From Arcanobacterium sp. (GTDB taxonomy: Bacteria > Actinomycetota > Actinomycetes > Actinomycetales > Actinomycetaceae): DNA of 64,000 nucleotides. How positions within the stretch are numbered: the stretch's first letter is position 1; each line of letters opens with the position of its first letter. The notes below the pieces were generated by a model. That model was not told where the DNA came from and searched no databases. It saw nothing but the letters and a program-made list of their open reading frames with translations. The stretch spans positions 248,001-312,000 of the forward strand of contig JALFSN010000002.1 of the NCBI GenBank assembly GCA_022778805.1. The letters run 5' to 3'. Position numbers and translations under genes: made by a program. Below, one piece after another: positions 289-623 of this stretch.

Positions 289-292
289 CAGC

Positions 293-506
293 GAGGAGTA
301 CGAACGGAGAGAACTTGTTCTCTTCAGCGAGTACGACGAAGCTGTACGTAAGAATGCGCAGCATTCTTACGAATACGATGAGGAGTACGAGCGAAGAGAG
401 TTTACTCTCTTTAGCGAGTGCGACGAAATTGTACGCAAGAATACAAATGTGTTCTTGCAAGTACAGTGAGAAGGGCGAGTGTTGCTTTTGCAAGCGCAGC
501 TTCTCA
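293..506 (+). repeat. Three-copy stem-loop array in the tRNA-Glu/tRNA-Asp spacer
   Basis: Two imperfect tandem units start at 293 and 380 (period 87), and a degenerate third starts at 468. Each of the first two units has the same order of hairpins. The first is a 7-bp stem with a 4-nt loop (307-324; 394-411). The second is a short GTAC-type stem around a conserved GACGAA loop (331-347; 418-434). The third is an 11-bp stem (347-371; 435-458). The stems keep pairing although the bases differ. For example, A-T in the first hairpin becomes G-C, and T-A and G-C in the long hairpin become C-G and A-T. Unit three keeps a TGAGAAG/CTTCTCA stem (467-506) around a TTGC-TTTT-GCAA hairpin. The region would be transcribed with the tRNAs. 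It could be RNA-processing structure, a structured ncRNA, or an extragenic palindrome family. Confidence 0.75.
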
Positions 507-536
507 ACAACAGGTAGATTTGTCTACTGTCATAAT

Positions 537-610
537 GGCCCTGTAGCGCAGTTGGTTAGCGCGCCGCCCTGTCACGGCGGAGGTCGCGGGTTCAAGTCCC
601 GTCAGGGTCG
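537..610 (+). tRNA. tRNA-Asp (anticodon GTC)
   Basis: A 74-nt cloverleaf with acceptor GGCCCTG/CAGGGTC (one G-T wobble), anticodon stem CCGCC/GGCGG, anticodon GTC at 571-573 and T arm GGGTTCAAGTCCC. CCA is not encoded. A further small hairpin (TAGA-tttg-TCTA, about 515-527) lies immediately upstream. Confidence 0.96.
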
Positions 611-623
611 CGGTGAGATGACT

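Follow-up and report, generated by a model that had tools for sequence, protein, structure and literature searches.

Tandem two-hairpin units with a conserved fold behind tRNA and tmRNA genes of Actinomycetaceae, and their junction in common with serine-recombinase prophages

The window analysed here is a stretch of 64,000 nt from Arcanobacterium sp. (contig JALFSN010000002.1, positions 248,001–312,000, forward strand), whose first 740 bases hold a cluster of tRNA-Glu, tRNA-Asp, and tRNA-Phe genes, in an order kept in all 10 genomes of the genus. tRNA-Glu(TTC) occupies 216–289 and tRNA-Asp(GTC), the downstream gene of the same operon, 537–611 (both on the plus strand, ARAGORN); the spacer between them measures 247 nt and contains two units, 290–376 and 377–464, which show 83% identity across 63 nt when compared at an offset of 87. 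The left junction of this array is AC, the last two bases of tRNA-Glu (288–289); the gene end at this place reads GGGGGTAC in 10 of 10 congeners. Each unit consists of HP1, a hairpin with a 5 × 5 internal loop (GAGGA/GACGA) and a further GA step, and HP2, an otherwise plain hairpin with a bulge of two bases; all four hairpins are on the plus strand. HP1 of unit 1 (290–343; 77.7 bits with R1, a covariance model built from five copies of three congeners; also assigned from covariation and from GA positions nearly invariant in 78 sequences) is composed of P1 (AGC/GCT), the GAGGA/GACGA loop, P2 (GTAC/GTAC), the GA step, a long stem, and a CTTG loop, and its P1 can be extended into the tRNA-Glu end as GTACAGC/GCTGTAC. 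HP2 of unit 1 (344–376; assigned from its fold) carries an AA bulge, terminates in ATAC at the next junction, and is of the same type as GTGCGTAATCCCnnnnGGGATTACTAGCAC of other genera. Unit 2 comprises HP1 (377–430; R1 79.1 bits) and HP2 (431–464; fold), the latter terminating in GTAC at the right junction.

Between the array and tRNA-Asp lie two simple hairpins (465–536, plus strand), which a first-pass annotation of this DNA had taken for a third, degenerate unit suited to a common covariance model. R1 does not match them, and the segment is better read as native Glu-Asp spacer, an equation with the congeners that is based on position and layout (hairpins, 72 nt) and not on sequence identity. 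In 7 of the 10 congeners this spacer is only 32–63 nt long, with simple hairpins and no array; the array is present at tRNA-Glu in 3 of 10. The layout of the window genome and of G002, two units plus about 70 nt, agrees with units having been inserted behind the tRNA end and ahead of the native spacer; native trailers at this site also start with a hairpin. Because tRNA genes in conserved operon order flank the array and what we read as a promoter-like sequence lies upstream of tRNA-Glu, the array is very probably transcribed and read through as part of the pre-tRNA. The Asp-Phe spacer (612–662) consists, in 10 of 10 congeners, of a single GC-rich hairpin and then a T-rich tract just before tRNA-Phe, and has a terminator-like look inside the tRNA cluster.

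The sense strand of 289–465 folds at −72.9 kcal/mol versus −44.0 kcal/mol in shuffles (z −7.2), the antisense more weakly (−51.1 kcal/mol, z −4.2). When the five HP1 copies of three congeneric genomes were aligned by MAFFT, two-sided changes were present in 12 of 19 pairs, and 96.8% of cells paired versus at most 50.5% with the partners slid. A second covariance model, R2, gave 88 copies (78 distinct), in which 91.3% of cells form standard pairs versus 25–38.3% with the partners slid, 18 of 19 pairs carry two-sided changes, and the covariation score is 0.707 versus 0.263 in shuffles; this larger alignment is model-fitted and so leans to structure, its sequences are related, and the figures are not probabilities, the same picture being given by the five-copy MAFFT alignment. 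Across the family the internal loop reads GA-n-GA opposite GA-n'-GA; each of the eight G/A positions is kept in 71–78 of the 78 sequences, and the n-n' pair between the GA steps is G-C in 44 and C-G in 22 of them, an arrangement that would form two tandem sheared G.A steps around one base pair. The GA steps are carried on the sense strand. G.U makes up 9% of paired cells, which suits RNA and is also compatible with DNA. The pairing-preserving changes described in the first-pass annotation between the two units were thus confirmed, and covariation supports its view that selection acts on a folded strand; as to whether this strand is RNA or cruciform DNA, sense GA steps and operon position make array RNA very probable, and folded single-stranded DNA is also allowed.

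R1 detected strong relatives in other genera, and the search of related Actinomycetaceae was productive: nearly all of the R2 copies belong to this family, with matches in 24 of 213 family genomes and 10 of 36 genera. In a class-wide sample of 395 genomes, one genome of another order was matched by R2, with a copy adjoining tRNA-Met. A pattern scan of a named genome collection gave convincing matches in Actinomycetaceae only (Varibaculum cambriense; V. vaginae; G213, of the genus Varibaculum and recorded as Tissierella sp.; and the Actinomycetaceae MAG G002); those in named genomes outside the family, with 21.1 bits at most and no tRNA alongside, resemble chance matches. The window units had no match in 50,697 phage records, and five pattern matches in IMG/VR were discarded, each being either at most 14.4 bits or missed by R2. 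The supposition that no described RNA family has this form agrees with Rfam 15, where no family reached gathering within the units (only tRNA, tmRNA, Lysine, and msiK, outside them); the covariance model of Actinomyces-1 RNA (RF02928) found no match in five unit-carrying genomes, nor in control genomes, and our literature search found no description of an HP1-HP2 element. The window genome has three HP1 copies, the third of which lies in L124 (7708–10230; contig C5, about 347707–350230), where a prophage-like region appears to end; this region carries, beside the copy, a C5 methylase and a restriction enzyme of the SinI type.

Of the 88 copies, at least 29 directly adjoin an intact tRNA or tmRNA gene at its 3' end, in every case on the gene's own strand; sixteen start exactly one base past the annotated end. 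The genes concerned are tRNA-Val(TAC), Lys, Pro(TGG), Glu, Ala(CGC), Gly(CCC), Pro(CGG), Val(GAC), Val(CAC), and Met, and tmRNA. By our own arithmetic, a genome of 2 Mb with roughly 50 genes of this kind would show such adjacency by chance about 2 times in 10,000. AC directly precedes 64 of 88 copies; the exceptions include joins to tRNA-Gly, which follow TC, and copies at tRNA-Pro and tRNA-Met, which overlap the acceptor strand, and the G005 unit has a lower score and begins one base further on. Most of the copies that do not abut a gene follow other units in the same arrays, stand beside displaced tRNA/tmRNA fragments or phage ends, or are dispersed in G186. The family thus adjoins about a dozen kinds of tRNA/tmRNA gene; the RNA form that the first reading placed inside a tRNA operon is present there as an array, but it is not specific to that operon, given these other genes, the signs of mobility, and the breakpoint common to prophages that are described below. 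The basal stem of HP1 can often be extended into the tRNA 3' end (Glu, GTAC/GTAC; tmRNA and Ala, CAC/GTG; Pro, CCCC/GGGG), and two pairing registers are possible, because the bases that extend the HP1 stem also pair within HP2. It is a testable idea that this extension might affect tRNA maturation.

Such features could belong to an old host element, a resident pre-tRNA trailer RNA that shapes tRNA/tmRNA 3' processing and is duplicated or exchanged by homologous recombination, with phages merely using the tRNA end as attB. The same-strand position at the first trailer base, the conserved fold, the stem extendable into the tRNA end, and the retention of orthologous Lys and Val copies among Varibaculum species all agree with this explanation, which we consider possible but rather doubtful: presence is patchy (24 of the 213 genomes of the family and, at tRNA-Glu, 3 of 10 congeners), near-identical units occur at different loci in different genera, copies are dispersed in G186, and both phage-HP1 and HP2-phage joins fall at the same base.

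The phage junctions were delimited in G009, where a prophage separates the tmRNA from HP1; the site is uninterrupted in its congener G007. Comparison of the two gives attB as CTCCAC followed by AGTAACG of HP1, attL as CTCCAC followed by CACTAGGACGCTCATTTTGATACAA, and attR as TTGTATCAAAATGAACGTCTAAGTAAC followed by AGTAACG. The implied attP, TTGTATCAAAATGAaCGTCtaagtAAC followed by CACtaGGACGcTCATTTTGATACAA, is a near-palindrome and has only AC as a core in common with attB, a two-base core being as expected for a serine integrase. Among the prophage genes are those for tail, holin, and endolysin proteins and for a pair of adjacent serine recombinases. With P and P' denoting the two phage arms, complete attP junctions occur in G021, G002, and G176; tRNA-P' junctions at tRNA-Ala, tRNA-Gly, and tmRNA across many genera; HP2-P' junctions in L219, L234, and L241 (twice); and P-HP1 junctions in L069 (twice), L072, L089, L093, and L078, the last in the window genome itself. 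Each of the six possible joins of tRNA end, HP2 end, or phage P with HP1 or phage P' was seen, with the break after AC. That tRNA-HP1 and tRNA-P' meet at one base is partly expected, because A73-C74 is common to all tRNAs; independent weight for a shared breakpoint comes from the HP2-P', HP2-HP1, and P-HP1 joins. The HP2/HP1 half-sites have no obvious resemblance to the phage P/P' arms, a motif screen of the unit loci found nothing convincing in the way of tyrosine recombinases beside the units, and most other twin-recombinase elements in the family have their ends at different sites, where HP1 is missing. Two more adjacent pairs of serine recombinases were noted in the window genome (L273, L274), one near tRNA-Gly(CCC) and one near a tRNA-Ala/tRNA-Ile pair; these are probably other integrated elements.

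Filled and unfilled sites were also found in pairs, and insertion at the tRNA/tmRNA 3' end with the tRNA left intact is what marks a tRNA-targeted element: at tRNA-Ala(CGC), P' directly follows the tRNA end in G009 and G200, with one unit between them in the congeners G003 and G198. Units cluster by type, not by locus. The tRNA-Lys unit of V. vaginae is 97% identical to a Varibaculum tmRNA unit versus 75% to other Lys units, and the tRNA-Ala unit of G003, of another genus, is 97% identical to Varibaculum units. Arrays at tRNA-Val have one to four units, and a tmRNA-derived array is ordered X-Y-A in G210 versus A-Y-X in G211. Behind the tmRNA of V. cambriense G210 (contig C5, L069 3423–10490) come three HP units, an arsenic-resistance (ars) islet, an HP unit, a surface-protein islet, and an HP unit, the islets having phage-like P arms at their ends. 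Interleaving of this kind, together with unit ends that behave like ends of integrated elements, might suggest that the units are attachment-site debris, left over from integration and excision of prophages and islets and with no role of their own; debris would not retain 18 covarying pairs and near-invariant GA steps across 78 distinct sequences, and we judge this explanation highly improbable.

The highest count of any genome, at least 27 dispersed copies, is in G186 (L102–L119, L079, L081), where many copies are nested in a REP-like repeat whose core, CCTCGCAAYGACG, occurs 155 times and is of the CGTC type; the repeat is absent from the two congeners tested. A palindromic repeat of the REP/MITE kind, moved about by RAYT or another transposase that favours tRNA 3' ends, would account for this copy number and nesting and for the tandem hairpin layout, and CGTC-tagged REPs are themselves known to have no dedicated transposase, their spread being left open in the literature (Di Nocera et al. 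2013, PMC3733652). The Y1 transposase PF01797 is present in 3 of 14 genomes; G186, the window genome, and the five Varibaculum genomes tested all lack it, so that a RAYT/Y1 mover is missing where copies abound; there is no GTAG tag, and the junction is common to serine-recombinase prophages. We therefore regard this explanation as improbable. The two groups are alike in their short palindromic units, tandem clusters, and plausible transcription. CGTC REPs have a stem of 8–9 bp that starts with A-T pairs, within 20–40 bp in all (PMC3733652), whereas HP1 is 54 nt in the window (50–78 nt in the family) with a GAnGA/GAnGA loop and a 4-bp P2, mostly GC or GTAC. As to the unpaired CGTC, TGTC, or CCTC tag at one end of such REPs, the complement of GACGA gives TCGTC next to P2, but with its GAGGA mate opposite, and the two swap sides. 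The window units stand at tRNA 3' ends, and copies number 3 in the window genome versus at least 27 in G186. G186 has neither a twin-recombinase match at E ≤ 1e-60 nor a Y1 transposase to account for the spread of units in that genome, and the lack of a recombinase match tells against the cassette explanation given below.

Integron arrays resemble the present ones in their head-to-tail units at a fixed short core, folded repeats, and order changed between genomes, and differ from them in that our units are gene-less and their junction is common to serine-recombinase prophages. Identity with an integron was rejected, as no genome exceeded the TIGR02249 cut-off for the integron-type tyrosine integrase and only weak Xer-like matches were found. 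The RtT RNA (RF00391) of the E. coli tyrT operon consists of tandem repeats that follow a tRNA, include a portion of its 3' end, and are co-transcribed with it; our units are similar in this arrangement, but have no Rfam match, another size and fold, and many kinds of tRNA gene. Genomic islands and prophages at tRNA and tmRNA genes (Islander, PMC4383910) have the same precise 3' position, and the unit ends copy a few tRNA-end bases; the units, however, are about 87 nt, gene-less, and tandem, and would be moved by a serine rather than the usual tyrosine recombinase.

We give an even chance to the explanation that each HP1-HP2 unit is a structured mobile cassette, small and non-autonomous, which inserts itself at the AC junction at tRNA/tmRNA 3' ends, probably via serine recombinases, and then serves as a pre-tRNA trailer. 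Units stand directly behind mature tRNA/tmRNA ends, mostly after AC and themselves ending in AC; they are stacked in tandem, are shuffled between tRNA loci and genera, and keep a tRNA-sense fold. Entry would be by site-specific recombination at the AC dinucleotide. The mover would most likely be large serine recombinases like the adjacent pair of the prophage group, a role suggested by the shared junction in the sequences. After entry, HP1 would be the first trailer hairpin of the pre-tRNA, and its fold may be kept because it serves as such. Tentatively, and with considerable doubt, the analogy may be carried to a serine-recombinase counterpart of the integron array, in which folded gene-less units, prophages, and gene-carrying islets would be interchangeable head-to-tail cassettes at a two-base core behind tRNA/tmRNA genes, the unit doubling as pre-tRNA trailer.

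We regard the element as new, in that its combination of fold, target, and junction is unusual among small non-autonomous mobile elements. The attachment junction of serine-recombinase prophages of Actinomycetaceae is mapped by the same comparisons, which also bear on how small palindromic repeats without a transposase of their own spread. If the proposed explanation is true, tRNA/tmRNA trailers would be exchangeable modules moved by site-specific recombination, and a single structured family would make both mobility and pre-tRNA processing testable.
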